Notes under the pieces: model-generated
The model's database searches: none
What the model saw: only the letters and a program-made list of their open reading frames with translations
What the model was told of the DNA's origin: nothing
Made by a program: the position numbers and the translations under genes
Virus record (IMG/VR): IMGVR_UViG_3300020411_001573
Span: 1-30,860 of that record
Origin: a virus
Strand: one strand, 5' to 3'
DNA: 30,860 nucleotides
Shown: one piece after another, positions 3,286-22,451 of the stretch
Layout: each line of letters opens with the position of its first letter
How positions within the stretch are numbered: position 1 is the stretch's first letter

Positions 3286-3816
3286 CTATTTTAAATTTTT
3301 GGTTGCGGTGTCAATTGCTTGTCTAACTGCACCACCTAATTCAGTTCTATTAAATGGAATATCATCTGAAATTTGTAATCCAGCAGCTGATATTCTTGTA
3401 GCAATTTCACCCTGTCCTCTGGAAGTTTTTACTCTACCAGTTTGATTATCTTTTATAGATATTACCATATTCACCTGAGTTTTAGAATTTCTACGATTAA
3501 ATAATCCTACAATACTAAATGCTTCATTTGGTCTACCGATATAAACAACTTCCGCAGATACAACAAAATTAGCATTATCATCATCTACTAATATATATCT
3601 TGAATTAGAAAATGATTCTTCTAAAAGTTGACGAATACCTAATGTTACTCTATCATCTTTTATACCTGTATTTTCATCAACCTTTACAAACTCAGAAATT
3701 TTTAATGTTGGTTGGATTAAATCTTCACCTACTATTGCAGGTTGTGGTAAATCTTGTCCACGAACTAACCCAAACATTAAAAAACTGAATAATATTACTT
3801 TCATTGTTGTTTTCAT
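3286..3816 (-). CDS. CsgG-domain exported protein, short form
   Basis: The 176-aa protein has a signal peptide (MKTTMKVILFSFLMFGLVRG, then QDLPQP). The rest resembles the periplasmic alpha/beta domain of the CsgG family: ISEFVKVDE, the LGIRQLLEESF helix, then RYILVDDDNANFVVSAEVVYIG, and a terminal helix GGAVRQAIDTATKNL. It has no Cys after the signal peptide, so it is not a lipoprotein, and it is too short to contain the whole CsgG pore fold. It has an AGGAG site 6 bases before the ATG. It lies two genes downstream of the lipoprotein CsgG homologue, which suggests partners in one complex. The function is inferred from family resemblance. Confidence 0.65.
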   Translation of the reverse strand: MKTTMKVILFSFLMFGLVRGQDLPQPAIVGEDLIQPTLKISEFVKVDENTGIKDDRVTLGIRQLLEESFSNSRYILVDDDNANFVVSAEVVYIGRPNEAFSIVGLFNRRNSKTQVNMVISIKDNQTGRVKTSRGQGEIATRISAAGLQISDDIPFNRTELGGAVRQAIDTATKNLK

Positions 3817-3825
3817 TTTGTTCTC

Positions 3826-4821
3826 CTAAAAATAAGTTCCAAACATTATACTGAAACTTTTGTCTCTCTCACCATAGTCATTAACTATAGTATTATATCC
3901 CATTGATACTCCAACATTCAATACAAATGCTTGTCCAACTTTCCAATCAACTGATATGGTCGGAAAGAGTATTATGGGACTCTTTAATAATAAATATTGA
4001 TTTCCTTCAGAATTACCCTCATAATATCGAAATAATGTATAAGCAATATAATTAGAAAATGTAACTTTTGTTCCATTAAAATTAAATGGAAATTGTTGTC
4101 CATAAACTACTGATATATTTCCAAAGTTAAATTTACTAACATTACCATATGAACCAGTAAGAACAAGTGCCTCTGTATTTTTCTTTTGTAATGCCTTTGC
4201 ATATGAGGCAGATGCTAACCAATCCCAACCCTCAAATGTTTTATAAGTTAATACACTTCCATTTACTTGAACATTTTGTTTTTTTGCCTTAAATTTAAAT
4301 CCTTGGCCATAGGTTAATGAACCCTTTCTAAAATCATCAGTAAAATTAAAATTACCATCGTGCCTTCTTGTTCCATCAAAACTTTCTGCTGTATAAACAC
4401 TATTAAAGGCAGTAACCCACCTATCGTTATTTGTTCTTGATGTAGAACGAATTGCGTAATTTATTTGTTGTGGTTCGGATGATATATCCTCATCTGATTT
4501 ACTGAATTGTTCACTAACATTACTTGCTATAACTGAAGATAAAACCTCTTCTGCAACTCTTACTGCACATGGAAATAAATCCTCAAAATCTTTATATACA
4601 CTCTGTGCCCAAGCTTCTAATTCACCATTAATAACTTGTTCGAATGTAAAATATCTTGTTTTATTATAATAGGTAACCCAGAATCCACGACCATCTGAGT
4701 CACCAAAATTATAAACTGAACTTACAACATTTTGTTCACATGGGTCTATGTAATTATAAAAAAATGATTGGGCGGAAACACTACTCCAAAGAGCCAATAA
4801 TACTATTAATTTCCGAAACAT
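3826..4821 (-). CDS. Exported protein with predicted outer-membrane beta-barrel
   Basis: The 331-aa protein has a signal peptide (LIVLLALWSSVSA, then QSFF). The mature N-terminal 100 residues contain IDPC (about 26-29), a segment FTFEQVINGELEAWA and LFPCAVRVAEEVLSS. The two cysteines could form a disulfide. The rest alternates polar and hydrophobic residues, with many Gly, Tyr and Phe and a C-terminal Phe (IMFGTYF), as in outer-membrane barrels. The start overlaps the CsgG gene's end region (TAAAATGAATG), implying coupling. In curli systems CsgG works with the exported CsgF; whether this protein plays a similar part cannot be told, and I do not recognise its family. Confidence 0.5.
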   Translation of the reverse strand: MFRKLIVLLALWSSVSAQSFFYNYIDPCEQNVVSSVYNFGDSDGRGFWVTYYNKTRYFTFEQVINGELEAWAQSVYKDFEDLFPCAVRVAEEVLSSVIASNVSEQFSKSDEDISSEPQQINYAIRSTSRTNNDRWVTAFNSVYTAESFDGTRRHDGNFNFTDDFRKGSLTYGQGFKFKAKKQNVQVNGSVLTYKTFEGWDWLASASYAKALQKKNTEALVLTGSYGNVSKFNFGNISVVYGQQFPFNFNGTKVTFSNYIAYTLFRYYEGNSEGNQYLLLKSPIILFPTISVDWKVGQAFVLNVGVSMGYNTIVNDYGERDKSFSIMFGTYF

Positions 4822-4826
4822 TCATT

Positions 4827-5468
4827 TTACCAACCTTTTCTATCGATTGCCTTTATTACATTAACAACTGCTGTTTCCATTGCTTTGTTTGAAGCAGAAC
4901 TTAAAGAACTTTGATTCCACTGCATATTTGGATTTTTTAGAAATCCAGAACCTACAGTCGATGCTCTTCCTTGTCCACTACCAACTACATATTGTGTGTT
5001 TTCTAAGTTAACTAACTTAACTTGAATACCAACAATAGTTTCATTAGCTGTTTGGATTTTACCACCTTTGATATCTTCAGTAAGGTTTACTGCAAAATCA
5101 TAAATGGTAACATATCCCCAATATTTAGCTTTATCTATTTTAGCGTTGTTTGCTTTTAAATCATTTAACATTGCTAATTGATTATCTCTATCAGCCTCAA
5201 TTAAATTAAATCTACCAACATAAGATACTACATTCTGTAGTTCTTGTGTTAGTCCAAATGCAACTCTTTTTTCTGCCAATTCAGGATATCTATCTTCAAC
5301 ATCTTTATTGAATTTTACTTCAACAATCTTTAGTCCATCTACTTTTGTAATCTCCACCTCATCCAATGATTTTTGTTTTTCATATTCACCAACATATTGT
5401 TCAGTTGATACTGAAGCGGCACATGACATAAAAACCATTGCAAACAATATTGAGAATAGTTTGTTCAT
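4827..5468 (-). CDS. csgG: CsgG-like curli secretion lipoprotein
   Basis: The 213-aa protein begins with a lipoprotein signal (LFSILFAMVFMSC, Cys17 as the likely lipidated residue). CsgG-type features follow: RVAFGLTQELQNVV, a strand/helix with GRFNLIEADRDNQLAMLNDL, a central AKYWGYVTIYDFAVNL strand, VQVKLVNLENTQ-type strands, and a C-terminal helix KAMETAVVNVIKAI. CsgG forms the nonameric outer-membrane pore that exports curli subunits. At 213 residues it is somewhat shorter than typical CsgG. CsgG-like genes are known from some marine T4-like phages. The family assignment is good; export of a specific substrate is inference. AGGAG lies 7 bases before the start. Confidence 0.7.
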   Translation of the reverse strand: MNKLFSILFAMVFMSCAASVSTEQYVGEYEKQKSLDEVEITKVDGLKIVEVKFNKDVEDRYPELAEKRVAFGLTQELQNVVSYVGRFNLIEADRDNQLAMLNDLKANNAKIDKAKYWGYVTIYDFAVNLTEDIKGGKIQTANETIVGIQVKLVNLENTQYVVGSGQGRASTVGSGFLKNPNMQWNQSSLSSASNKAMETAVVNVIKAIDRKGW

Positions 5469-5477
5469 TCGTCTCTC

Positions 5478-5873
5478 CTATTTTTTATCGCCTCTATCCC
5501 ATCCATAAGGTCGTTTTTTATCATGTCCCTTACGATGAGATTTTTTAGCGTATTCGTGTCCTATCCAAAAAGAAATTCCACCAACAACTACATAACTTAA
5601 AACTCTATGTTTTTTTGTTGGTTTTTTAACTTCATATCTTTTATGGTCTAATGCTCTCATGTGAGCTCTTTTATGTGCTGCTTCGAATTTTCTCCATTCA
5701 GCATCTTGAGCTCCCATCCACACCTTTTGTCCCCAAGAAAGTTTATTCATCTTTTCTTGAGCAAGATTTTGTCTCATTTCTCTTTGTTCTTGTTTAGTAA
5801 TTTCTTTATCGGTTTCTGTTTGTTGTCCAAATAAAGGAACCATTAAACATATCATAAATACTATCTTTTTCAT
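5478..5873 (-). CDS. Exported or membrane basic protein, unknown
   Basis: The 131-aa protein has a signal peptide (KKIVFMICLMVPLFG, then QQTETDKE) and a charged helical stretch rich in Gln, Glu and Arg. A hydrophobic segment (VLSYVVVGGISFWIGHEYA, about residues 91-109) follows, and then a strongly basic tail. It therefore probably sits in an envelope membrane with a basic end. No family is recognised. The gene lies between the small coiled-coil membrane protein and CsgG, with AGGAG four bases before the ATG, and is part of the same transcription run. Confidence 0.6.
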   Translation of the reverse strand: MKKIVFMICLMVPLFGQQTETDKEITKQEQREMRQNLAQEKMNKLSWGQKVWMGAQDAEWRKFEAAHKRAHMRALDHKRYEVKKPTKKHRVLSYVVVGGISFWIGHEYAKKSHRKGHDKKRPYGWDRGDKK

Positions 5874-5886
5874 AGTACTCCTTTCC

Positions 5887-6267
5887 CTATCTTAAATCAG
5901 ATAGTGGGTCTTTTAGTAATTTCTCCAATCGTTTAATCTCATCTTGTAATTTATCAATCTCATTTTCAAGTTTGATAATATCACCATCATAAGATTTAAC
6001 TTTTGGTGTTTTTAATCCATCAACTTTCTCACGAAGATATTTAAAATCTTCATCATACTTATTGAATTTTTCTGTTACGATTTCTATATCAGAAGCTTCT
6101 GCAAATCCTTGAACTACTTCTTCCAACCCATCAATACGGCCAGTAAAACTATACCAACCAGCAATGACGGTAGAAAGAAAAGTAACAATAGCAATAATAT
6201 TATTAATTGATACTTTGAATCCTTTTCCTTTAACTTCTTCAATAGCTTGTTCTATATCCTTTGCCAT
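5887..6267 (-). CDS. Small membrane coiled-coil protein
   Basis: The 126-aa protein has a single membrane helix at about residues 22-41 (INNIIAIVTFLSTVIAGWYSF). A long heptad-like helix follows to the end, with the last 40 residues strongly coiled coil (IIKLENEIDKLQDEIKRLE). The layout resembles XhlA-type haemolysin/holin accessory proteins and also simple scaffolding proteins. AGGAG lies 7 bases before the ATG. It sits directly downstream of the PorV/Q-like barrel gene and is part of the envelope block. Function is unknown; the holin-accessory reading is only one option. Confidence 0.55.
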   Translation of the reverse strand: MAKDIEQAIEEVKGKGFKVSINNIIAIVTFLSTVIAGWYSFTGRIDGLEEVVQGFAEASDIEIVTEKFNKYDEDFKYLREKVDGLKTPKVKSYDGDIIKLENEIDKLQDEIKRLEKLLKDPLSDLR

Positions 6268-6284
6268 AACTTATCTCCTATTTA

Positions 6285-7166
6285 TTATATCTTTACATTT
6301 ATAGTAAGTTGAAAGGTGTTACTTAAAGGATGAATTTCATCACCATAAATATACCCTACACCTATTAAATATCTATCATAATTGAAATCTAATCCAAGTG
6401 ATGGATAACTTAAATCGTGTGTATCATCTTTAAAGTATCCAAGTCTTACCTTCATTATATCTTTTATATTATAATCAACTCCCCATCCTGCAGTATAATA
6501 ACCATCATAAATATTATATTGTTCATATAATGTAAAATCTTTTAATGGAACACTAAGTCCAACATTTAAACTTGATGGTAATTCAGAGTCAAAATCATTA
6601 AACTTTGGTGCCAATCCCACATTTTGTATTGCAACATCTGCTTCAAGATTTAAGTTTCCTATTTTTAAATTTGGAAAAAAGAATCCTGCATCAATTACTA
6701 AACCAGTTGCCTTTTCGGTATGTAAACTATGATTTATAAGTTTCCCTTTAACACCAGCATATACTTTATCTCTTAATTGTGTTCCCCATCCTGCAGATAC
6801 TACAACTGAGTTTGGATTAAAATCTCCTAAGATAATTCCACTTTCATCTGAATAATTTTGTGAACCATAATCAAAATATAATAAATCAAATGACCATTGT
6901 TTGTATGAACCTTGAAGATAATTATATCCCATATCCTCAGTTATATTTTTCAACCAATCTACTCTTGTAAATCCAACATGACTTAATGTATCCAAATCAA
7001 ATGAATTACGAGCAGGATTTCTAAATACCAATGATTGGTTTCCTACACTTGCCTCATATGATGTTGGTGAAATAGTCAACATTCTATTTACTTGTGCAAA
7101 CAATTGACTACTCAATGATAATATTATCATTAATATTAAAAATATACCAAATTTATTCTTTTTCAT
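6285..7166 (-). CDS. PorV/PorQ-type outer-membrane beta-barrel
   Basis: The 293-aa protein has a signal peptide (FGIFLILMIILSLSSQLFA, then QVNRML). It begins with a segment typical of the PorV/PorQ/UPF0164 barrel family: LTISPTSYEASVGNQSLVFRNPA. It continues with repeated amphipathic strands (VVVSAGWGTQL, KVYAGVKGKLINH, VIDAGFFFP, VAIQNVGLAP, KVRLGYFKD, YLIGVGYIYG) and ends on an outward strand. In type IX secretion, PorV carries cargo with a C-terminal sorting domain from the translocon to the attachment complex, and PorQ with PorZ forms part of that complex. Here the gene follows a T9SS-type cargo and two mini membrane proteins with overlapping ATGA junctions, which points to joint function. 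The exact PorV/PorQ placement is uncertain. Confidence 0.65.
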   Translation of the reverse strand: MKKNKFGIFLILMIILSLSSQLFAQVNRMLTISPTSYEASVGNQSLVFRNPARNSFDLDTLSHVGFTRVDWLKNITEDMGYNYLQGSYKQWSFDLLYFDYGSQNYSDESGIILGDFNPNSVVVSAGWGTQLRDKVYAGVKGKLINHSLHTEKATGLVIDAGFFFPNLKIGNLNLEADVAIQNVGLAPKFNDFDSELPSSLNVGLSVPLKDFTLYEQYNIYDGYYTAGWGVDYNIKDIMKVRLGYFKDDTHDLSYPSLGLDFNYDRYLIGVGYIYGDEIHPLSNTFQLTINVKI

Positions 7167-7306: not shown

Positions 7307-7407
7307 TTCTTTTCTACCTTCTCACTAACCCAAACGATGACGGATATTAATCCATACGCCGCTGGTATGCTTAAAATTATTATTGCTCCAAATAATATCT
7401 CACTCAT
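7303..7407 (-). CDS. Mini membrane protein 1 (34 aa)
   Basis: The frame reads MSEILFGAIIILSIPAAYG and then LISVIVWVSEKVEKK: one hydrophobic span with a charged C-terminus. The ATG shares a base with the TAA stop of the 879-aa secreted protein (TAATG), and its stop overlaps the next start (ATGA). Nothing else fills the 240-base gap between the two larger genes. It is probably a membrane peptide; no family is recognised. Confidence 0.55.
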   Translation of the reverse strand: MSEILFGAIIILSIPAAYGLISVIVWVSEKVEKK

Positions 7408-10046
7408 TATTTAATGACCGTGAATTTATTTGCTTTTATTTTTCTATCAGTCTGTAATACAAATACATAAACTCCAGGTTCTAATGTCTGATGTCCATCA
7501 TAAGTTGATACCTCAGAAAAGAATGAACTTGGTTGATTTGTAAATTCAAATGTATGTATTCCAGCATCTATTTCTTCATCTAACAATGTTCCAACATATT
7601 GTCCCATTGAATTTAAAATATAAAGTTTTACATTTTCTCGTTGGTCAAGATAAAATTGGAACTTAGTATTCTCTTTAAATGGATTTGGATAATTGTATGT
7701 TATATCATCATTATTTGGTTGTCCACCACCGAACGCCCAATATTTATTCCATACCATTACTTTACCATCTTTTCTATCCATTAATAAATCTTTACCACTT
7801 GGACTTCCTGCATTTTTCTTACCAACAAATTTAATTGGTGCTTCTGTCCATTCGGCATCTGGGAAATTAGCTTGGAAAATTAATTTCAATCCAACAATTT
7901 CTTTATTTATGAAATATTTTTCAGGTGCATTTCCTGGAGTATAATCCATACCACCAAATGAAACTCTTTGCCATCCATCTGCTCTTGCTTCATGAACATT
8001 CACATATGTCATCCAAGGCCCTGGCAATATATCTGTTTTCATATCTATGAATTTAAGTTCATCAGATTTAAATTCAATTTCAAATTCAAATCCTGCAACA
8101 TCTATTTCTTTAGATTCTTCAGGTTTAATTGTTAATGGAATTTCTATTTGGTCTCCACTTGAAACTCTGACCGTTGAATCTGCTGGTAATGTTAAGAAAA
8201 CATCAGGAGTAGTTTCTGCTATTTTATTTACCCAAGTATTAGGTGCATTACCATTACCCCATCTATAATAAGTTGTTCCATTTACATCAATATACCCATC
8301 AGCACCATTTCCTGGTTCATCAACTTTAGTTCCTGTAGTATTGATATCACCAGTAAAGAAGTATGCCCAATCAGGTAATGTATAATCAGGATTTGCATCA
8401 CTATTATATGTAGATGAACCCGCACCTATATTAACCTGTAAGGTATCTAATCCAGTTTGAATATCATTCATCAATGGATTTGTTACTTCTATTTGTCCAA
8501 ATGTTAAAGTTGTATCTTGGTCAAAATCATCATCCTCAAAGACAGTAAATTCATATTTTTGATTTCCCCAAGTTTCATACCAAGTATAATTAAATGGTTG
8601 ATTGTTTTCTTTTAATGTATCAATAGTTGACCAATTTTGTAATGTATCTCCATTTAAGTGAACATAAGTATCAAAAATTCCTGAAGTATATGCCCATATA
8701 AAATATGAATCATTTAATTGGAATACATCATCACCATCAACATCACCAATAAAATATTCTGTAGTGTTTAATGTATCATAAGTTGCTGGGTCTGCTTGCC
8801 ACTTACCACTTTGGAAATTAAATGAAGCAATAGCATCATTGATATTACTAATTGCATATCTATCAAGTGTATAAGATGTATGAGTTTCTATATCATCATC
8901 TTCATCTGGAGGATAAAAAGATACACGATAAACATTATTTCTTGGTAATTGAATATTAAAATATCCTCTATCATCGGTATAAGTTGAATCATAATAACTT
9001 ACTCCTAAAAATCCCTCATCTGGTATTTGATGGTCTGAAGTTGTTCCTTTTAAATCATATCTAAATGTTGAAGTATAATCACCAATAACATCATCAGAAT
9101 TATCTTCATCGGTATTACTTGAAGTATTTGTAACTGTCTCTATATTATACCAATTACTATAGTTACCTGGATTACTCTGGTCTAATTCAAATCTTATTTT
9201 CCAATATGGGAAAGTATTTTCTGCTCCCCTATCTACACCTTGAACATATCTGAAGTATCCCTCAACATCTACAAGTTCAGGGTGAAGTGTGATATCACCA
9301 CGAGCACCACCATCATAAGTTTGTTCCGTTCCATAATTTCCATCAATATAAACTTTGTAATCTAATAGATAATCATCACTTACATAAGTATAATATCCAC
9401 TTCCACCTTGATATAGTGTTGGAACTCTAAATGATTGTGGTTGGAAATTATCTACTACATCTTCTATTTTAAAATATAATTTTAATAATTGTGTTTGATT
9501 TCCATCACCATTTCCAAATGTATGTGTATTTCCATTATGAGATACCATTGTAATTCTTAACCAATCATAACGATTATTTGCTTGTGATATTTCACTATCA
9601 GCAGTTTGTAAAGAATCCACATATCCAATGTTTGAATAGTGAGTTACTTCATACGAGTAATGTGCGTTCGAACTTTCATCACCTTCAGTCCAACCTGATA
9701 TATAAGAACCCTTTAATACTTCTGTATCATCGTGGTCCCAATCAATTAAATCATTATCAAATACTAAATCTAATCTAAATGCAGTTACATCTGCATCATT
9801 ATCATCTAAGGTAACTTCCATTACCATAACTGAATCTCTCCAGGCATCAAAATTATTATTATATAATGCTGGATTATTTACATCATCAGCAAGATAAGTT
9901 TGTAGATTATGTGTGACATTATCTCTCCACCAAAAATCTGGTGTATCATATGTGTCAATTTGCATAACTCTTATGATAGGATTTTGAGCCTGAACAAAAC
10001 CCATAACCATTAAGAGCCAAAACATTTTCTGAAGCATAAGTTTCAC
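7407..10046 (-). CDS. Large secreted protein with T9SS-type C-terminal sorting domain
   Basis: The 879-aa protein starts with GTG, behind AGGAG 7 bases upstream. It has a signal peptide (residues 1-20, then QNPIIR). An N-terminal beta domain (about 75-195) looks cohesin-like. A dockerin-like calcium loop, GDVDGDDVFQLND, lies at 434-446, and a weaker one is near 566-590. A clear cohesin-like domain spans about 615-768 (DVAGFEFEIEFKSDELKF). The end (782-879) is a Por-type sorting domain: YNYPNPF, KLYILNSMGQYVGTL, LEPGVYVFVLQTD and KANKFTVIK. Such domains direct cargo through type IX secretion to the cell surface. No enzyme motif was seen. It heads an operon with a PorV/Q-like barrel. Adhesion or surface masking is plausible but inferred. 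Confidence 0.75.
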   Translation of the reverse strand: MKLMLQKMFWLLMVMGFVQAQNPIIRVMQIDTYDTPDFWWRDNVTHNLQTYLADDVNNPALYNNNFDAWRDSVMVMEVTLDDNDADVTAFRLDLVFDNDLIDWDHDDTEVLKGSYISGWTEGDESSNAHYSYEVTHYSNIGYVDSLQTADSEISQANNRYDWLRITMVSHNGNTHTFGNGDGNQTQLLKLYFKIEDVVDNFQPQSFRVPTLYQGGSGYYTYVSDDYLLDYKVYIDGNYGTEQTYDGGARGDITLHPELVDVEGYFRYVQGVDRGAENTFPYWKIRFELDQSNPGNYSNWYNIETVTNTSSNTDEDNSDDVIGDYTSTFRYDLKGTTSDHQIPDEGFLGVSYYDSTYTDDRGYFNIQLPRNNVYRVSFYPPDEDDDIETHTSYTLDRYAISNINDAIASFNFQSGKWQADPATYDTLNTTEYFIGDVDGDDVFQLNDSYFIWAYTSGIFDTYVHLNGDTLQNWSTIDTLKENNQPFNYTWYETWGNQKYEFTVFEDDDFDQDTTLTFGQIEVTNPLMNDIQTGLDTLQVNIGAGSSTYNSDANPDYTLPDWAYFFTGDINTTGTKVDEPGNGADGYIDVNGTTYYRWGNGNAPNTWVNKIAETTPDVFLTLPADSTVRVSSGDQIEIPLTIKPEESKEIDVAGFEFEIEFKSDELKFIDMKTDILPGPWMTYVNVHEARADGWQRVSFGGMDYTPGNAPEKYFINKEIVGLKLIFQANFPDAEWTEAPIKFVGKKNAGSPSGKDLLMDRKDGKVMVWNKYWAFGGGQPNNDDITYNYPNPFKENTKFQFYLDQRENVKLYILNSMGQYVGTLLDEEIDAGIHTFEFTNQPSSFFSEVSTYDGHQTLEPGVYVFVLQTDRKIKANKFTVIK

Positions 10047-13063: not shown

Positions 13064-13092
13064 AATATAACAACATCAAATTTTCTACTCAA
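13064..13092 (-). promoter_or_regulatory. Candidate sigma70-like promoter upstream of tail genes
   Basis: The minus strand reads TTGAGT (13092-13087), 17 bases, then TATATT (13069-13064). The -35 matches four of six bases and the -10 five of six. It falls in the only gap (13018-13084) of the tail run, overlapping slightly the end of the 1624-aa gene, and would serve the genes from 13017 downstream. The plus strand of the same box reads ATATATAAATATAA, a T4-late-like sequence, so orientation is not certain. Confidence 0.4.
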
Positions 13093-16000
13093 CTATTAAT
13101 TTAGAATCACCTGGTTCTTTAGTTATTAATCGAGTTGGTGATGTTATAGTTACTTCAACTGGTTCCTTACCATCTATTGTATTTTCCTTTGTTAATTGTG
13201 TTTGTTTATAAAATAATCTAAATAATTTTGATTCATAGGCCATACTCTGATATTCTGCTGGTTCAAATGATGCACTATATTGATAATTTCCACCATATTG
13301 TGTATGAATCCCATATCCATTTGCATCAGAAACACTTAATGAACTTGTATAAAATTTTAATTTTATTTCATTATGTTCTGATAATCTTGAAGAACTTACA
13401 AATGGTTGAGTTGCCTCTTCAAATTCTGTTGTGGTTCCACCTAATGTTATACTTGCTGTTGCGTATAAACTTCCATAAGGACTTATATAATCTATTTCTT
13501 CTAACCTAACTAATGTAGGTAATCCAAGTGTTCCAAGTGAACCAGATTCTAAGTTATGAATATTAACCGCACCATTATACATTGGAAATTCTCCACTTGG
13601 TATAATTGTTCTATCATCGGAACCACTAATGAAGTTTGTCATCTTCAATCCATAATCAAAGTGTCCTGCATTTTCATAATATGTATTTTCAAGTTCTGGT
13701 AATTTACCAACAACTTCTTTATTTCTTTCTAATATATTTGGTTCAATTAATAAACCTAAATTTGTATTTGCCCTTGCAGGTATTAACTTTTCAAGTTGAG
13801 TCCAAATACTTGCATCAAAATAATCAATCAATCTCATATAATCCCAAAAGTTATTTGGTGAATTATATTTTTTAAAATAATTTCTTTGTTGTTGTTCTAA
13901 TCCACGATATTGGTATTTATATTGGTCTCTTGGGTCTCCGATATAATCATCAAAATTCATATCTGCTATACTATACATTATATCTTCATTGATAACATCT
14001 GCTGGTGAAAAATAAACTCCTAACTTATTACTATCAACTGGTGCAGTATCTTGTGATGATTTTTCTCTTCTAACATTATATGCTAATTGTCCATCTAATG
14101 AAGTATTCTCAATTCTAATCTTGGTTGCATTTCTTCTTGATGGGCCAAGATTAGGAACTTTCATTTCTTCTACATCAACTAAACTTCTATAATTATTACC
14201 ACCAAATTGTTGAGTACTTCCACTATAATCATAAGTTTGTGGATGTGCAATATTAGTAAGTGATGAAGTAGTTGCATAAGTAACATTATTATCTAATGGT
14301 ATTCTTAAAACTAAATTATCATAATGTGATTGTGTTGTATTACCATTATATGCTTTAGGTGCCCTTAAATGATTTTCAAATACACTCTGAGATAATGGTT
14401 CACTCCATAATCTGAATTCCATTAATGAACCACTAAATTGTGTTCCAAAGTTTGAACCATTACCACCAAGATAAATAAATCCACTTGAAGTAAATGCGGC
14501 GTTTAATGCGTTTCCTGCGGCCGCAACTCCACTATCAAAACTTTCACTTGTAGAATAAACAACTCTATTTCTTGTTGAATCATATTGTCTTGTTGTAAGT
14601 TCATAAGTTACATTTTGTGTAATTGAATCACTTGTTAAATCAACTCCACTTGCACTCTTTCTTGTTAACATTACACTCCACATTTCATCATTATAGAATG
14701 GTTGTTCAGAAGAAGTAATATATTGAATTCCAGTTGATGCACTTACACTAAATCTTAAATACCCCTTATTATCTGTATCTCCATTATCTTGTAATTGAAT
14801 TGCAAATTCATTTCCTTTTTGTACAATAACTTGGTCTTGTGATTTAGGACTTCTAAATCTAAATTCAATTGTTTCTGGTTTAATACCACTTGTTGAATCA
14901 TTTTGCCATTGTGATTCAACATATTCTTTTGATTTAAAATCTAATGCGTATGTAAACTTTCTTTTTATTTCATAACTAACTCTTTCATTTAAATCTGGTC
15001 CACCATATTCTCTAACTCTTAATATAGAACTTGGAACACCATAACAATTTAATAATCCTTTAATTGCTCTTGTGTTTCCTTTGTTCTTTAAGAAGAATGG
15101 TAAGTTAGCCAATAATCTTTTCCATATTTCTTCAGTAACTTCTTCTTGTGGTGATTCATATTTATCAGAACCATCGGATGCCTTACCTACCAAATATTCT
15201 GGAAGTATAATTAAATCATTACCATTAGTTACATCCATCCCTAAAGATTTAGCAACCTCACGAACAATATCTTTTGAAATACCCTCTGATAATTTATTTG
15301 AATGTTCATTAATATCTGTAAAGTGTCTTAGGTAAGTCCATATCTCATCAAATTGTTGTCCTATCATATCAACAAATTCTAAAAATACATTATTTTGAGT
15401 ATCAGTATTAACATGAAGTGGTAAATTATTTACTAACCTATTAGTATTGTTATCATCAAATAATGATGCACTTGTTATAACATTATTATACCAAGTAGTT
15501 GAAGTTGAACCACTCGTATGTGCTAATGTATATGGTGAAGTTGAATTTTCTTTTGGCCATGTTGCTTGATACCACTCACCAACTGAACTTGAAACATAAG
15601 AACCACTTTGATAATATAAATAATGTTCATATGGGTCAAAACTATTTATCACTTGTTCTTTCTTTACATCAAAATTATTCATTGATGTTGCAGAACTTGT
15701 AACATTAGTTAAGGCAAAACTTTCAGAAGTATAGTATTCAATTAATTCTACTTTATCTCTAAAGTTTCTAACTCTTTGTTCTGCCGAACCAAAATGAACA
15801 AAATTTCCAAATCCAAAATCTGTAGTTTCTTCACCTATTGTATCTGTTCTTTTTGCATAATCTACATTAACTTGAACATCTAATAAACTACCAGAAAGAA
15901 CTTTATTTTTAATATCTTGTTGTGTAGTTGAATCAGTTCCAATTAAATCATTATGTGTTCTATATTGTGTTCCTCTAAAATTAATTGGATTATCAACTGA

Positions 16001-17959
16001 GTTTAAATTAGGAACTCTTAAATATAATAATTCTTCTTTTTCTTCAATAAATGGAACTAACTCTATAGTATCTTCATATGGTTCCATTTTTTCTTCAACA
16101 AAATAAACTAAATCATTTACTTCAATCTCATCATCAAGTTTATCATATAATTTAAAGTATCTTGCAGTTTTATCTGTTATATCTTTTAATGGTAACTCTT
16201 CATCATGTGCCTTTGGTGCATCAAAACTATTAATAATTAAATTATATTTTTTATCGGTAACTAAATAAGTGTTTAATCTTGTAACTTGATGTTTAGTATA
16301 GTTAACAAAAAATTCATCAAATATTTTTCTTGAATTATCTTCTCCACTATGTTCTGATTCATTTGCTGCAGATTCATATGTTTTATCAACTTTAATTCTA
16401 TTATAATCTAATACTTCTATAATCTTTGCTTTAAAATCAACTGGAACTTGTGTTGTTGTTCTAACTTCAACTTCAAAATCTTCTTCTACCCACTCACCAT
16501 CATATTCACCTATTATCTCATCAACTTCTTCTTCATTTTCTATTTTTTTTATTGTATCAATATCATATGTTGGTAATTTAAAATCAGTAATGAATTCATT
16601 AAGTGGTTCAAATTGATTACTTCTTCCTAAATTAGTTCCATAACTTCCACCACTTTCCATATCACTTTCACCTGCCTGACCACTACCATCTTCAAAGAAT
16701 TCTTCACTTAATGGTCGTATCATATTAATTCTTTTATTTCTCATATCTAAGAAATGATTAATACTATTCCATTTACCAAGTGTAGCAGATGTTACATTGT
16801 TAGCAATAATAGTATGATGTTTATCAAGAACTAAATTCCAAACATCCAATGCTTCAGAAACAAACTCATTACCAATTTCGTTTGCCATATACCACTTACC
16901 TTGATGTTTAATTGGATGGTGGTCTGTAGTGATAAGATTTTTATAACGAACTAATTTATCTCCGTAAGGTCTGTTATCTTTAACTACCTTTAATACTTTT
17001 GCGTAACCCTGTTCTGTTTTTACTTTCATACCAGGTTTCATCATCTTGATTGGTATGGAACGATTGTTACTTAATTTTATTTTTGTATCACCTGTAAAAC
17101 AAACACTTCCGTAAGAATCTTCTTCTCTATCATCTTCCCATTCCTCTTCTGGACCTGGAACATCTTCTATAGTTTTCTTAGGGTCGGATAATTTTTTTTG
17201 TGCCTGTAATGCCTTTTTTACTAATCTTTTTTCAGTTCGTTTTGTAGTACTCGTTAATGAATACTCAAACATTTCTTTAATAGTAATTTCACCACCAACC
17301 ATTGCATCAGTAAATCCTCTTTCACCTGGTGCATCATTAAACACTAATATATTAGGGTCTGTTAAATCCCATCGAATAGTTCCACCACCACCTCTTTTAA
17401 GTGGTATGTAAACTATATTCTTATTCATAGATGCAAAATTTTTCTTGTAAGGAACATTTTTAATTTCCTGAACATCTACTTTTAATTCTCTTTTATTTGG
17501 TGATATTTGTTTAATGAAATATTTTAATTCTTTTGGAAATAATTCTGTTGGTTCTACTTTTTCTTGTTTTCCACCAAAAACATTTTGTGTAAAATATCTT
17601 GTTTTTCCATTTATAACTCTTGTTGCTATTCTACCATTATGAACATAACCATTTTCATTTAGGAAGACAGTTTTTTTCTTACCTGCAACTCTTCTTAAAA
17701 ATAAATACTTTACTTTATATCTACCTTCCTTATAACCAAGTTGTCTTAAATGTGTTCCAATATCTAAATCAATAGTTGAATCATCTTGAAATAAAAGTTC
17801 CCCCGCTGATAGTATTTCATCATCTATCTGATTTCCATCTTCATCATAAACATAAAGATGGACAAAGTCTTTGTTATCTCTCCCATACGAACTATAAAAT
17901 GGTTTAGGAGCGATTAATTGTTCACTATCTTTTGGTTTTATTCCCTCAAACTTTGCCAT
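13085..17959 (-). CDS. Giant baseplate protein with internal Hint (intein-like) domain
   Basis: The 1624-aa protein lies downstream of gp6 and two small genes and is presumed a baseplate or tail component. A Hint domain occupies about residues 287-388: block A starts at C287 (CFTGDTKIKL), block B is TTDHHPI with T345 and H348, and the end is DVWNLVLDKHHTIIANN (N387-N388). The last residues lack the usual His-Asn followed by Cys, Ser or Thr, so protein splicing looks unlikely, although N-terminal autocleavage at C287 is possible. A LamG/concanavalin-like domain falls at about 1000-1200 (GSLMEFRLWSEPLSQSVFENHLRAP). The rest is beta-rich. Similar giant proteins near gp6 are common in marine T4-like phages. 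Confidence 0.75.
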   Translation of the reverse strand: MAKFEGIKPKDSEQLIAPKPFYSSYGRDNKDFVHLYVYDEDGNQIDDEILSAGELLFQDDSTIDLDIGTHLRQLGYKEGRYKVKYLFLRRVAGKKKTVFLNENGYVHNGRIATRVINGKTRYFTQNVFGGKQEKVEPTELFPKELKYFIKQISPNKRELKVDVQEIKNVPYKKNFASMNKNIVYIPLKRGGGGTIRWDLTDPNILVFNDAPGERGFTDAMVGGEITIKEMFEYSLTSTTKRTEKRLVKKALQAQKKLSDPKKTIEDVPGPEEEWEDDREEDSYGSVCFTGDTKIKLSNNRSIPIKMMKPGMKVKTEQGYAKVLKVVKDNRPYGDKLVRYKNLITTDHHPIKHQGKWYMANEIGNEFVSEALDVWNLVLDKHHTIIANNVTSATLGKWNSINHFLDMRNKRINMIRPLSEEFFEDGSGQAGESDMESGGSYGTNLGRSNQFEPLNEFITDFKLPTYDIDTIKKIENEEEVDEIIGEYDGEWVEEDFEVEVRTTTQVPVDFKAKIIEVLDYNRIKVDKTYESAANESEHSGEDNSRKIFDEFFVNYTKHQVTRLNTYLVTDKKYNLIINSFDAPKAHDEELPLKDITDKTARYFKLYDKLDDEIEVNDLVYFVEEKMEPYEDTIELVPFIEEKEELLYLRVPNLNSVDNPINFRGTQYRTHNDLIGTDSTTQQDIKNKVLSGSLLDVQVNVDYAKRTDTIGEETTDFGFGNFVHFGSAEQRVRNFRDKVELIEYYTSESFALTNVTSSATSMNNFDVKKEQVINSFDPYEHYLYYQSGSYVSSSVGEWYQATWPKENSTSPYTLAHTSGSTSTTWYNNVITSASLFDDNNTNRLVNNLPLHVNTDTQNNVFLEFVDMIGQQFDEIWTYLRHFTDINEHSNKLSEGISKDIVREVAKSLGMDVTNGNDLIILPEYLVGKASDGSDKYESPQEEVTEEIWKRLLANLPFFLKNKGNTRAIKGLLNCYGVPSSILRVREYGGPDLNERVSYEIKRKFTYALDFKSKEYVESQWQNDSTSGIKPETIEFRFRSPKSQDQVIVQKGNEFAIQLQDNGDTDNKGYLRFSVSASTGIQYITSSEQPFYNDEMWSVMLTRKSASGVDLTSDSITQNVTYELTTRQYDSTRNRVVYSTSESFDSGVAAAGNALNAAFTSSGFIYLGGNGSNFGTQFSGSLMEFRLWSEPLSQSVFENHLRAPKAYNGNTTQSHYDNLVLRIPLDNNVTYATTSSLTNIAHPQTYDYSGSTQQFGGNNYRSLVDVEEMKVPNLGPSRRNATKIRIENTSLDGQLAYNVRREKSSQDTAPVDSNKLGVYFSPADVINEDIMYSIADMNFDDYIGDPRDQYKYQYRGLEQQQRNYFKKYNSPNNFWDYMRLIDYFDASIWTQLEKLIPARANTNLGLLIEPNILERNKEVVGKLPELENTYYENAGHFDYGLKMTNFISGSDDRTIIPSGEFPMYNGAVNIHNLESGSLGTLGLPTLVRLEEIDYISPYGSLYATASITLGGTTTEFEEATQPFVSSSRLSEHNEIKLKFYTSSLSVSDANGYGIHTQYGGNYQYSASFEPAEYQSMAYESKLFRLFYKQTQLTKENTIDGKEPVEVTITSPTRLITKEPGDSKLIVE

Positions 17960-17963
17960 TTAT

Positions 17964-18548
17964 TTATCTCCCAAACAACTTCTTAATGAACTTTTTAACT
18001 TTCTTTTTTGCTTTTGCAATTGCCTTTTTACCTACTTTGTCTTTAATTTTCTCTAAGGTACTTTTAGTTGATTTCACAGCTTTCTGTTCTGGTGATAATG
18101 ATTGATTAGTTACTTGTTCAATTGCATCTTCTAAAGATTTATTCAATTCTTTGTTTGTTTCAATCTGTTCTTGTAATTGTTGTTTTAATGCTTCAATTTC
18201 TTCTGGTGAAGTTCCTTCTTCCTCTTCAACTTCTTTTGGAAATATTTCAGTAAAGTTTAAATCATCACCAAAAAATTTTAATACTCTTATCGGTGTTGAA
18301 GATTTTTGTTCTACTGGTATTCTTACATATTGATATGGTTGTTCAATTGATTCACCCTTTTTATCTGGGTTCTCAAGTGATAATAAAACTCCATCCTCAT
18401 CACGAAGTGGATTTGTAGCATCAATAGAACCAGATATACTAAGTCTCTGTGATTCTTCTTGAACAAGTTTTAAATGTTTTCTTTTATCTGAATCCTCTAC
18501 ATTAACATAATAATCTGAACTTCTTATTTGTTCACTTGTATATGGCAT
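17964..18548 (-). CDS. Baseplate-associated coiled-coil protein with basic C-terminus
   Basis: The 194-aa protein has a beta-type N-terminal half. A Glu-rich coiled coil follows at about 105-145 (SPEEIEALKQQLQEQIETNKEL), then a Lys-rich end of amphipathic helices (KKAIAKAKKKVKKFIKKLFGR). The last 30 residues look like a membrane- or nucleic-acid-active basic helix. The ATG overlaps the stop region of the ferredoxin gene, and the SD is GGGAG. It lies between the ferredoxin and the Hint-containing protein in the tail block. No family is recognised; a tail role is contextual. Confidence 0.6.
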   Translation of the reverse strand: MPYTSEQIRSSDYYVNVEDSDKRKHLKLVQEESQRLSISGSIDATNPLRDEDGVLLSLENPDKKGESIEQPYQYVRIPVEQKSSTPIRVLKFFGDDLNFTEIFPKEVEEEEGTSPEEIEALKQQLQEQIETNKELNKSLEDAIEQVTNQSLSPEQKAVKSTKSTLEKIKDKVGKKAIAKAKKKVKKFIKKLFGR

Positions 18549-18847
18549 TATTGTATCTCCCTACCAAAGAAATCATAATTAATTTTTATATATTTTTTCC
18601 ATTCATCTGGAGTGTCATCTTCATCAAAAATTGCTTCTACTGGACATTCTGGTTCACACGCTCCACAATCAATACATTCATCAGGGTCAATATATAATTG
18701 TAACCCATCAGGATTGAATCCATCTGCCTTTGCTTCTTCACCCATACCTTCTTTATCAAAAGGCCCATGAATACAATCAACTGGACAAACTTCAACACAA
18801 GCTGTATCACAAGTTCCTACACATGGTTCTGCAATTATATAAGGCAT
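18548..18847 (-). CDS. 7Fe-type (3Fe-4S/4Fe-4S) ferredoxin
   Basis: The 99-aa protein is a bacterial ferredoxin of the FdxA/Azotobacter FdI kind. C9-x7-C17 with C68 fits the 3Fe-4S cluster; C21, C58, C61 and C64 fit the 4Fe-4S cluster. C13 and C25 are extra. The motifs [11 protein letters not shown] and [18 protein letters not shown] are near-identical in style to cellular proteins, and the [15 protein letters not shown] tail also aligns. A loop at about 31-50 ([19 protein letters not shown]) is longer than in FdI. It is a soluble electron carrier. It sits inside the baseplate gene run with no gap from neighbours, which is unusual and suggests it is expressed late with the tail genes. Confidence 0.85.
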
Positions 18848-18848
18848 T

Positions 18849-20027
18849 TTATCTCACCACTTTAAATGACCAGTCATCATCATATATTATTGAGTTTTCA
18901 TTTGCCCCACTACCACTTACAACCTTAATTTCAAATCTATAAAATCTTTCTGGTTGGAACCCATTCATCCAAAGATTAAAGTAATTACTTGTTGCATCAC
19001 AACTAACAATTGAACCTGTACTAAATGGTATTATTACTTCTTCAGTTTCTGCATCTTTTACTGAATAATAAGTTCCTTGTGTTAATGCTCTACTACCACT
19101 TGGTAAAGTTTTAATTGTTAATGCTGCTGGTGTTGTATCAAATCCTCTTGTTGGATATAATTCTCTACCAACTAATCTAAATTTAACTTTTGATTTTTCT
19201 TTATACTCTGGTTTTATGTTTTGGAAATAAACAGTCAATCTATCTAACTCAGTTGCATTTAGTTCAGATAAACTTCCAGTATTCCAAGAACTATCATCCC
19301 ACATAACTTCTAATTTAGGTGGATAGATTGTGTGTGTTTCTCTTGAAAAGAATTTTAAATTACCAAGAATACTTGTATCATATTCTGCCGAACCTGTAGC
19401 GGTTGTTGGGTCAAAGATAGAATGTGCACTTTGAGATGTTGCTACATTTTCTCTCTTTATAATAAATCCTTGATTTCCAAATACTGAACTTGAATAGATA
19501 TGATTATTAACCAAATCAGTTACATCCATTCTTATATCTTGTGTTTCATAAACTAAATCATATGATGATGAAACATTCCATCCACTATTCAAACTTGAAG
19601 TAAACCAAGTTCCACCTTGAGTATCACTACCTGTTACCCATTGTGTTTCAGTAGTATCATTATCACGATACTTCCAACTTGCTCCATCACTTATAGTTGG
19701 GTCTCTATCTAATCTACCAGTTCCACCATTCCAACTACCCGTTACAATATATGCCCACAAAGTAGATTCAGTAGCCAATTCCGTTGAACTTGCATCATAT
19801 AAATTTAAAAAGAATTTTGCATCACTTGGTATAATTCCATCTTGTATTGATTTAGAAATATAACTATAATCAAACTTCATTAATATTCTTGAAACACTAA
19901 TTGTACTACCAGCCGAATTTACATTCTTATTAACTTCTAATATCTCATCCAATCCTGTATTGATTGATGAAGTTACATTACCAGAATAGATTGTTGTATC
20001 GGTTATTGGATATTCAAAATAATACAT
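18849..20027 (-). CDS. Baseplate structural protein with CBM-like beta domains
   Basis: The 392-aa protein begins with [20 protein letters not shown] and contains [30 protein letters not shown] and [15 protein letters not shown]. This is the jelly-roll layout of the DNRLRE/CBM96-type domain, which appears in surface and virion proteins. The C-terminal half ([22 protein letters not shown]) is also beta-rich. Its ATG overlaps the stop of gp6 by one base at 20027. In marine T4-like phages proteins of this type follow gp6 and are virion-associated; glycan binding is a possibility only. Confidence 0.65.
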
Positions 20028-21997
20028 TATACATCTCCTACCACTCTACCCTCGATATCTGTATCAGGGAATTTAAGTTCAAATATACTTGGGTCTAATG
20101 ATGGATATATTACACCATCTTTTGTTGCTGATTGTAAATCATAAACATGACCACTATAACCTTCTTCTGTTTTGTATTTATTATCTATCACTACAAGTTG
20201 TTTCTGTGGATTATCATCTTCTGGTGGAACAACACTTGCAACACCATCCACTAAAGAAATCTTATAGGCAATATCACTCAATACTATTGGTTCATTAATT
20301 TGCCATCTCTTAATATTAAAATGTTTCCTTACCTCATCAATACATTTCAATAATACTTTATTTTTATTATATCCTCGTTGAGTAATAATTGAAAATCTTA
20401 CTGATATGTTTATAACATATGCATCTTTAATATTAATTGCATCTGTTAACATTCTATATTGTGAAAGATATATTTTTAAATTTTGTTTTGTAGCATCATT
20501 TAAAATTACTAACTTACCATCATTACTATATCCTAAACAATAAAGATTTAAAGCAAATGGATTAGGTATTACCAATGAAGATTTGTTTTTTGATATCTTA
20601 CCATTTTTAATAATTGTTTGTGTATTTTCTTCTAATTGTTCATCTTGAACTATAAATGATTTTGCTATGTTTCCATATTTTTGTGGTAAAGAATATACTC
20701 TTGTGATATAATCTTCTTTTGTAACTGCTCTGTTTTGTGAATTAAAATAAGCCAATGCATTTTGTCTTACTTCTTCAGGTGATTCTCCACCACTTCCACC
20801 AGTAGCAGGGTCTGGATTTTTTATTGATAAACTTTCTTTTGTGTTCTTAACATCCGATGCAGTTAATCCATCTTCATCTAAAGTAAAAGTAACACTATCT
20901 CTATTAATAATTTCATTAGATAAAACATTATCATCATCACTTCCACCATAAGTATATGTAATAGTTAATGTAGTAGAACTTGGTGCCAATCCGAATGTTC
21001 TTGTTTTTAAGAAATTAGTTGGGTCAAATGATTCATCAAGTTTACTTAATCCACCTGCAAGAGATGAACCAACATTATCTGGGTTTGGTATTAATTCTTC
21101 ATCAGGAGATGAACTTATTCCTGCACCAAATCTAATTTCTGTTTTACCATCACTACGAACATAAGTTGTAAACCTACGAGCAGTTTTAATTAACTTCAAC
21201 ATATAAGGTGTATCACCAGAATGTGAAGAAACATCAGGAGTATTAACACTATTATTTTCTATTGATTCAAAGACTGTATCTTGTGCCAAGAAAGGAACTT
21301 CATACCATTTATTTCCATCACTATCTGAAATTGATTCTATATGAATAACATTTTCTTCACCTAAAATAACTTTATCAAATTTTTCTGCTGCTCCAAAAGT
21401 AAATGTTTCTTCCTTTTTCTTTCCAGATTCTAAAATTCCTTTTTTAGTTATTCTAAAATGTGTTGGATTAACACCAGAATAATTAGAAATAACTTCTTTT
21501 CTTTCATCCAAAGATGAAGATGTTTTAAAGTTAACACTATCTAATAATCTAAATTCTGTTCCATTCTTTGATGAAAATTTACTATCTGCATCTATTGATA
21601 ATGCATAATTTGTATTTGGAACATATTCTCCACCATCAAGAGTTGCTGGAACTTCTATACTGAATTCACCGATTGCTATAGATGGACTTGATAGTTTTGG
21701 TTTATATCCGAATGATTGTGCAATCTTAAAAATATTTTTCTTTTCCTCGGCAGCATGTAGTAATGATTCACGATATTGATTATCAATATAAAATCCTAAT
21801 ACATCTCCTACATATGCAGCCATTTCGATAAACATCATACCTGGTGATGATTCATTAAAATCATTGTATGAGTTTGGAAAATATGCTTTTGCAAATTCAA
21901 GTAGATTTTGTCTTATAGATGGGAAATCTCTACCGAGATATTTTACCTCTTTCTTATCTACCTTTTTTAGTGTGCCGTATTCTACTTGTGTTGGCAT
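20027..21997 (-). CDS. 6: Baseplate wedge protein gp6-like
   Basis: The 656-aa protein is close in length to T4 gp6 (660). The N-terminus shows the gp6/gpJ family pattern: YLGRDFPSIRQNLLEFAKAYFPN followed by SSPGMMFIEMAAYVGDVLGFYIDNQYRESLLHAA. The middle has GGSGGESPEEVRQNALAYFNSQNRAVTKEDY, the typical Baseplate_J segment. The C-terminus holds HFNIKRWQINEPIVLSDIAYKI and VDGVASV. In T4, gp6 dimers form the inner ring of the wedge that opens when the tail contracts. It is preceded by gp25 with only a base or so between them, the usual T4-like order. Confidence 0.9.
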   Translation of the reverse strand: MPTQVEYGTLKKVDKKEVKYLGRDFPSIRQNLLEFAKAYFPNSYNDFNESSPGMMFIEMAAYVGDVLGFYIDNQYRESLLHAAEEKKNIFKIAQSFGYKPKLSSPSIAIGEFSIEVPATLDGGEYVPNTNYALSIDADSKFSSKNGTEFRLLDSVNFKTSSSLDERKEVISNYSGVNPTHFRITKKGILESGKKKEETFTFGAAEKFDKVILGEENVIHIESISDSDGNKWYEVPFLAQDTVFESIENNSVNTPDVSSHSGDTPYMLKLIKTARRFTTYVRSDGKTEIRFGAGISSSPDEELIPNPDNVGSSLAGGLSKLDESFDPTNFLKTRTFGLAPSSTTLTITYTYGGSDDDNVLSNEIINRDSVTFTLDEDGLTASDVKNTKESLSIKNPDPATGGSGGESPEEVRQNALAYFNSQNRAVTKEDYITRVYSLPQKYGNIAKSFIVQDEQLEENTQTIIKNGKISKNKSSLVIPNPFALNLYCLGYSNDGKLVILNDATKQNLKIYLSQYRMLTDAINIKDAYVINISVRFSIITQRGYNKNKVLLKCIDEVRKHFNIKRWQINEPIVLSDIAYKISLVDGVASVVPPEDDNPQKQLVVIDNKYKTEEGYSGHVYDLQSATKDGVIYPSLDPSIFELKFPDTDIEGRVVGDV

Positions 21998-21998
21998 C

Positions 21999-22451
21999 TT
22001 ACTCTCCTGTATTAAATGTAAATGTTAATTCGTTTACTGCATCGGGGTCTTCAATATTCACAATAAATTCTACCCTAACATAAAGTGTATTAGGATTTGA
22101 ACCATCCGTTGTAGTAAACACATTATTTATTGTTATATAAGGTAACCAATAATCTACTGCCTCTCTTATTGATTGTTCAACTGAATCACCAATATCATCT
22201 GTTATTTGTTCAAATATTATATTCCATAAATCTGAACCAAATGTTGGTTGTCCTAATCGTTCACCTTTTCTTGTAAGTAAAAGATTTTTTAAATTAGAGT
22301 ATGCCTGGTCTGTTAATGTTTTTGCTCTTGGAAAAAATCCATCCCTACCATCTTTATATGTAAGTGGAAATTTTAATCCAAAATAAGAATCATTATCAGA
22401 AGCAATTTGTCTTACTGATGGATTATTAGTTAATTTAACATTTTCAGGCAT
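21999..22451 (-). CDS. 25: Baseplate wedge protein gp25-like
   Basis: The 150-aa protein has the GPW/gp25 signature: NLKNLLLTRKGERLGQPTFGSDLW, with E64-R65, P69 and F71-G72, corresponding to the EPR core that contacts gp6 and the sheath. C-terminal strands (TLYVRVEFIVNI) complete the family fold. Length is near that of T4 gp25 (132). It sits directly before gp6, the conserved order in contractile-tail phages and related systems. It initiates sheath assembly on the baseplate. Confidence 0.93.
   Translation of the reverse strand: MPENVKLTNNPSVRQIASDNDSYFGLKFPLTYKDGRDGFFPRAKTLTDQAYSNLKNLLLTRKGERLGQPTFGSDLWNIIFEQITDDIGDSVEQSIREAVDYWLPYITINNVFTTTDGSNPNTLYVRVEFIVNIEDPDAVNELTFTFNTGE

Follow-up and report, generated by a model that had tools for sequence, protein, structure and literature searches.

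A Vint-type Hint domain with predicted self-cleavage in a probable baseplate protein of a phage family

The 1624-residue product of an open frame on the minus strand of a marine phage contains, at residues 287-397, a genuine Hint-fold domain of the Vint type. Based on the residues that this domain keeps and lacks in all of its phage copies, on its selective constraint, and on the gene layout of its relatives, we concluded that it probably cleaves itself once, at C287, and that a single gene of the baseplate region would in this way yield two structural proteins. Hint domains in phages are already known, mostly as inteins in enzymes, and Vint has been described from eukaryotes, with a role that is little understood. 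If our reading is right, a probable virion protein has a Hint domain in the place of a gene boundary; the two products would then arise in a strict 1:1 dosage, and the timing of baseplate assembly might be switched by the cut. The window analysed here, 30,860 bases in length, is an entire IMG/VR record; it is linear and probably a genome fragment, and the features discussed below are listed in Table 1.

Table 1. Positions of the Vint-containing open frame and its parts in the window
Feature	Position	Strand	Basis
1624-aa ORF with Vint; probable baseplate component	13085..17959	minus	open frame, gene order
N-module, aa 1-232; separate gene of 282-327 aa in split relatives	17264..17959	minus	profile search, ORF layout of relatives
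Hypervariable linker 1, aa 233-286	17102..17263	minus	identity 0.22, dN/dS, pLDDT
Predicted scissile bond V286/C287	17099..17104	minus	C287 on intein residue 1; Cys invariant
Vint (Hint-fold) domain, aa 287-397	16769..17101	minus	PF14623, 8r2c profile, fold match
Block B, T345-D-H-H348	16916..16927	minus	TxxHP invariant in 44 distinct copies
Block F, H382-T383	16811..16816	minus	invariant in alignment
A392-T393 at the intein His-Asn place	16781..16786	minus	intein structural alignments end at 393
Post-Vint helix and conserved M413 (codon 16721..16723)	16721..16768	minus	Met in 43/44 copies
Hypervariable linker 2, aa 414-500	16460..16720	minus	pairwise identity 0.22, gap fraction 0.51
Conserved C-module, aa 505-1620, with weak LamG/concanavalin-like lectin domain	13100..16447	minus	family core used for tree

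Identification and fold of the Vint domain

A first-pass annotation of this DNA had placed a Hint domain at residues 287-388 of a giant baseplate protein (17101..16796, minus strand), and both the coordinates and the motifs it listed are present as described: C287FTGDT, TTDHHP with T345 and H348, and VWNLVLDKHHTIIANN. The Pfam Vint family (PF14623) matched the 1624-residue protein with an E-value of 2.5e-19 and 70.1 bits against a cut-off of 27, which is far beyond chance. A profile built from 29 phage Vint copies found the Tetrahymena Vint structure 8r2c in the PDB (E 3.7e-7) and, besides that, nothing better than E 1. AlphaFold modelling, for which the input was an alignment of proteins from the window and from the collected loci, predicted a Hint fold with pLDDT values of 90-97 over residues 291-390 and of 86 over residues 391-400. 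The top Foldseek match for the domain model was again 8r2c (E 8.9e-8, rmsd 1.8), followed by Tetrahymena BIL2, mini-inteins, a bacterial BIL domain, and Hedgehog, and the VIA-align Z scores were 15.1 for BIL2, 15.0 for 8r2c (124 residues), 13.7 for the bacterial BIL domain, and 12.2 for Hedgehog. The Hint fold of the earlier reading therefore stands, but Pfam and 8r2c assign it to Vint rather than to the BIL domains or inteins. In eukaryotic VWA-Vint proteins, VWA and Vwaint domains precede Vint; Pfam gave no VWA match in the 1624-residue protein, and for this reason we speak of a Vint domain and not of a VWA-Vint protein.

The fold reaches to approximately W397 and is followed by a helix at residues 400-409, so that the end of the domain moves beyond the N388 given originally. 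In the structural superpositions residue 287 lies on intein residue 1 and the usual last match at the intein end is residue 393; the counterparts of the His-Asn pair and of the +1 residue are thus A392-T393 and L394 instead of N388 and V389, as had been supposed.

Genomic context of the protein

The name "baseplate protein" is a sound guess because genes for gp6-like (20027..21997) and gp25-like (21999..22451) baseplate wedge proteins lie upstream of the open frame in reading order. Homologues of the protein hold a similar gene position in two cultured phages, and in one of them, a Flavobacterium phage, genes annotated as baseplate shortly precede the homologue. Gene order thus bears out the baseplate label of the first-pass annotation, while homology to a known baseplate protein does not: the 1624-residue protein had no match among PHROGs, and the C-module core, considered as a possible T4 gp7-like baseplate wedge protein, had no useful match among PHROG, Pfam, and PDB profiles. 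The model of this core (pLDDT 63) gave weak lectin-like matches alone, too weak to name the protein, and the C-module has a weak Pfam match to Laminin_G_3 and a weak fold match to the neurexin LNS domain.

Catalytic residues and predicted cleavage

Residue conservation was scored over 44 distinct phage Vint copies, which diverge to 53% identity. The cysteine of block A, the TxxHP of block B, and the HT of block F were invariant in all 44, and motifs A and B with a weak F are the pattern described for Vint, a name taken from eukaryotic VWA-Vint proteins (PMC2362128). Where an intein would end, the phage copies carry Ala-Thr, or once Ala-Ser, followed at +1 by Leu, Met, or Asp, and the class 1 intein end of His-Asn with Cys, Ser, or Thr at +1 was found in none of them. 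Since A392-T393-L394 replace the His-Asn pair and the nucleophile, the residues for the first step, an N-S acyl shift at C287, are in place, whereas those for Asn cyclisation and splicing are not. The absence of splice residues from every copy makes N-terminal self-cleavage at V286/C287 the best reading, and it upholds the earlier proposal that this domain could cleave at its N-terminal side, by way of C287, T345, and H348, without splicing.

The same residues weigh on the idea of a protein-splicing intein, either functional or recently degraded, which would share the Hint fold and the position of residue 287 on intein residue 1. We rejected this idea as close to negligible in probability because none of the 44 copies has a terminal His-Asn or a +1 nucleophile; the same type of end occurs in every copy across two clades, there is no endonuclease domain, the region is under strong purifying selection and not in decay, and the insertion lies in a hypervariable linker and not at a conserved site.

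In the mechanism that we propose, the N-S acyl shift at C287 would be followed by hydrolysis of the V286 thioester, with water as the presumed acceptor. This would release an N-module of 286 residues and leave a C-module of 1338 residues with Vint at its new N-terminus, and both products would be expected among the virion proteins. Position -1, just ahead of C287, is occupied by Val in 41 of the 44 copies and otherwise by Ala, Ile, or Thr, so that 43 copies have a β-branched residue (V, I, or T) there. In inteins a β-branched residue at -1 usually slows the first cleavage step, and the predicted cut may for that reason be slow or dependent on assembly.

A residue of this kind might also favour a longer-lived intermediate, which would suit a reading in which the Vint thioester is resolved by a nucleophile other than water and the N-module becomes joined covalently to a protein, a lipid, or a surface group. 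Such chemistry is native to the Hint superfamily, as in Hedgehog (PMC7664689), but no acceptor domain is evident in the phage protein, the post-Vint helix is short and variable, and the split relatives manage without any Vint, so that we hold this outcome to be quite improbable. Its more specific form, with Vint as an acyl-transfer device that hands the N-module to a nucleophile of a baseplate protein or of the cell, in tail assembly or at the host surface, is in our judgement decidedly improbable; if true, it would mean a covalent link within the virion or made by it.

Architectures among the relatives

Loci were gathered by three IMG/VR scans, with P0001, the C-module of a split form, and a relative of the fused type as queries, together with a scan by Vint profile and two isolates. 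The loci whose core was usable numbered 239; many of these were the same contig found twice, and the set reduced to 125 distinct cores and to 94 clusters at 95% identity: 28 fused with Vint, 44 with split genes, 19 fused without Vint, 2 isolates, and 1 with a broken frame. In both isolates a single chain spans the core, and an N-module was not detected. Within one phage family the same two modules are thus encoded by separate genes or joined in a single chain, either with or without Vint, and these three architectures form a natural experiment on the purpose of a self-cleaving domain.

Comparison of forms with and without the insert, as the first-pass annotation had suggested, bears on both the products and the need for cleavage. 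The N-module of the 44 split clusters has a gene of its own, of 282-327 residues, as compared with 286 residues for the predicted cleavage product, and in 29 of these clusters the N-gene and the next gene overlap in a TAATG stop/start. Given these N-genes and their separate C-module genes, the predicted products of 286 and 1338 residues resemble the two-gene proteins of the relatives, and Vint would be the protein-level counterpart of the stop/start codon pair, with a ratio of strictly 1:1. The 19 clusters with one chain and no Vint indicate that cleavage is not universally needed in this family.

Several smaller differences were seen among the split forms. In L063, L066, and L068-L070 an additional open frame of 289-380 residues, basic- and proline-rich, stands between the N- and C-module genes. 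The N-genes of the unlike relatives L272, L275, L279, and L058 all end in GGFS-stop, and within the GGFS codons, immediately ahead of the start of the following gene, lies AGGAGG or a comparable stretch of purines; this shared end may therefore reflect a ribosome-binding site. A lone case of split genes with Vint (L035:2947-7766) has the N-module and Vint in different frames that overlap just before the catalytic cysteine, and we discarded it as a natural split because its appearance is that of a frameshift, either a single-base indel introduced by sequencing or a gene that is broken.

Selection on the domain and its linkers

Mean pairwise identity was 0.69 in Vint, 0.49 in the N-module, 0.53-0.67 in the C-module, and 0.22 in both linkers. 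We calculated dN/dS from pooled close pairs, numbering 31 to 94 by divergence band, and the values are descriptive as the pairs share sequences. Among the regions measured, Vint was under the strongest purifying selection, with 0.12-0.14; the values were 0.19-0.25 for the N-module and for residues 505-760 of the core, and about 0.4-0.7 (0.41-0.74) for the two linkers, with linker 1 at about 0.4-0.5. A decaying remnant would not be expected to look like this in either selection or identity. The linkers that flank Vint vary freely in length and sequence, as tethers would, and over residues 221-280, the region of linker 1, the model has a pLDDT of only about 30-35. We also observed that dS in the same pairs was lower in Vint (0.16) than in linker 1 and the core (0.33-0.35), which could mean that Vint DNA is exchanged between phages.

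These patterns can be set against the view that the Hint domain is catalytically idle and that the baseplate protein retains it only for its structure, as a spacer. The β-branched -1 residue and the existence of relatives that lack Vint and remain one uncut chain would agree with an idle spacer, but none of the 44 copies departs from the Cys, the TxxH, or the His in spite of the divergence noted above, and variable linkers of low model confidence on both sides do not suggest a rigid spacer. We therefore consider this view unlikely, and self-cleavage at C287 remains our preferred reading.

Position of Vint relative to the gene boundary

A methionine occurs 15-22 residues past the conserved Vint core in 43 of the 44 copies and is M413 in our protein. 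When the segment that follows the domain in L040, which has Vint, was aligned Met to Met with the second gene of L274, which is split, the match was 65% over 66 columns (E 2e-21), and the start Met of the L274 gene fell on the L040 counterpart of M413. On the N-terminal side of Vint, linker 1 could be aligned only weakly with the N-gene ends (best E 0.002). As the linkers drift, the strong match at the boundary comes from the Vint copies that are closest to the split forms and does not hold everywhere. It is suggestive that Vint sits where the split relatives have their gene boundary, but the change between Vint and split forms was perhaps one event, which makes the coincidence one observation and not statistical proof.

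The same methionine could be taken as an internal start from which the C-module is made separately, the Vint region being a mere leftover. Its presence in nearly all copies and its alignment, in L040, with the second-gene start codon of the split relatives would be in keeping with this, but a Shine-Dalgarno-like sequence precedes the ATG in only 1 of the 43 copies, as compared with 19 of 29 genes in the window, and purifying selection at the protein level extends over the whole Vint coding region. Internal initiation at M413 was rejected on the Shine-Dalgarno count, and we regard a separately made C-module as very improbable.

In a FastTree phylogeny of the C-module, in which the outgroup is long-branched, the split genes form one group and the Vint copies form two, one of which (L038, L040, L046, L055, L140, and L143) is sister to the group of split and fused forms. 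This topology would fit a history in which Vint was gained once and later lost or replaced. Vint may have been gained at a gene junction, or its loss may have left a stop and a start.

Comparison with known Hint proteins

Eukaryotic VWA-Vint proteins (PF14623; 8r2c from Tetrahymena) are the best family match to the phage domain by sequence and by Foldseek, and they likewise lack the classical His-Asn end. The phage protein differs in that it comes from the baseplate region, has no VWA, and carries Vint internally with approximately 1230 residues after it. The Hog domain of Hedgehog (1at0, 6tyy), which passes its N-terminal part to cholesterol (PMC7664689), has in common with phage Vint the Hint fold, an N-terminal Cys with TxxH, and a single cut on the N-terminal side, which in our protein is predicted; however, it is not the closest in sequence, and phage Vint is followed only by a short helix and then a variable linker, in which no sterol-recognition region was apparent. 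Bacterial BIL domains (2lwy) and Tetrahymena BIL2 (6y75) share the fold (Z 13.7-15.1) and cleave rather than splice, but BIL2 has a C-terminal Asn (N143) where phage Vint has Thr or Ser, and the phage sequence is nearer to Vint than to BIL.

Phage inteins sit in the genes for TerL and ribonucleotide reductase (PMC3556154, PMC3853055). These too are Hint folds within phage proteins, but they lie in enzymes and are read as splicing, whereas phage Vint is without splicing residues and belongs to a protein that is probably structural, where it occupies a variable linker. The BFVD entries named "Hint domain containing protein", from uncultured Caudovirales and giant viruses, are also viral Hint folds, some with fn3 or collagen-repeat names, but they are different proteins from the 1624-residue Vint protein. 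In the open-access literature searched, we found no report of Vint in a phage tail or baseplate protein.

Distribution of phage Vint

All 80 loci kept from an IMG/VR search with phage Vint profile patterns carry Vint in this same protein. The annotated phage collection gave no significant Vint match, and the isolates Mel-JY01 and immuto have none. The genome contigs searched gave one match, L151 (NZZP01000021.1), a 17-kb contig of a Gammaproteobacteria MAG; it encodes the whole phage-type protein and is probably a phage contig in the MAG bin. Among 398 genomes of the phylum of this MAG, two exceeded the Pfam Vint cut-off, one of them being the MAG itself. Two bacterial hits, L284 and L286, were set aside because they scored under the Vint cut-off and carry Hint domains of another kind; in L284 a Cys-rich part precedes this domain, and the end is His-Asn with Lys after it. 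Two further bacterial hits, L283 (over the Vint cut-off) and L285, had no Hint sequence in the frame read.

Other genes in the window

Among the baseplate genes, 18548..18847 (minus strand) encodes a ferredoxin-like protein of 99 residues with two 4Fe-4S cysteine motifs. By eye, the minus-strand regions 7407..10046 and 3286..7166 hold a cluster of secreted or outer-membrane-like proteins, in which the end of an 879-residue protein resembles a type IX secretion sorting domain and 6285..7166 (minus strand) encodes a PorV-like β-barrel. Such a cluster would suggest that the host belongs to the Bacteroidota/FCB group.
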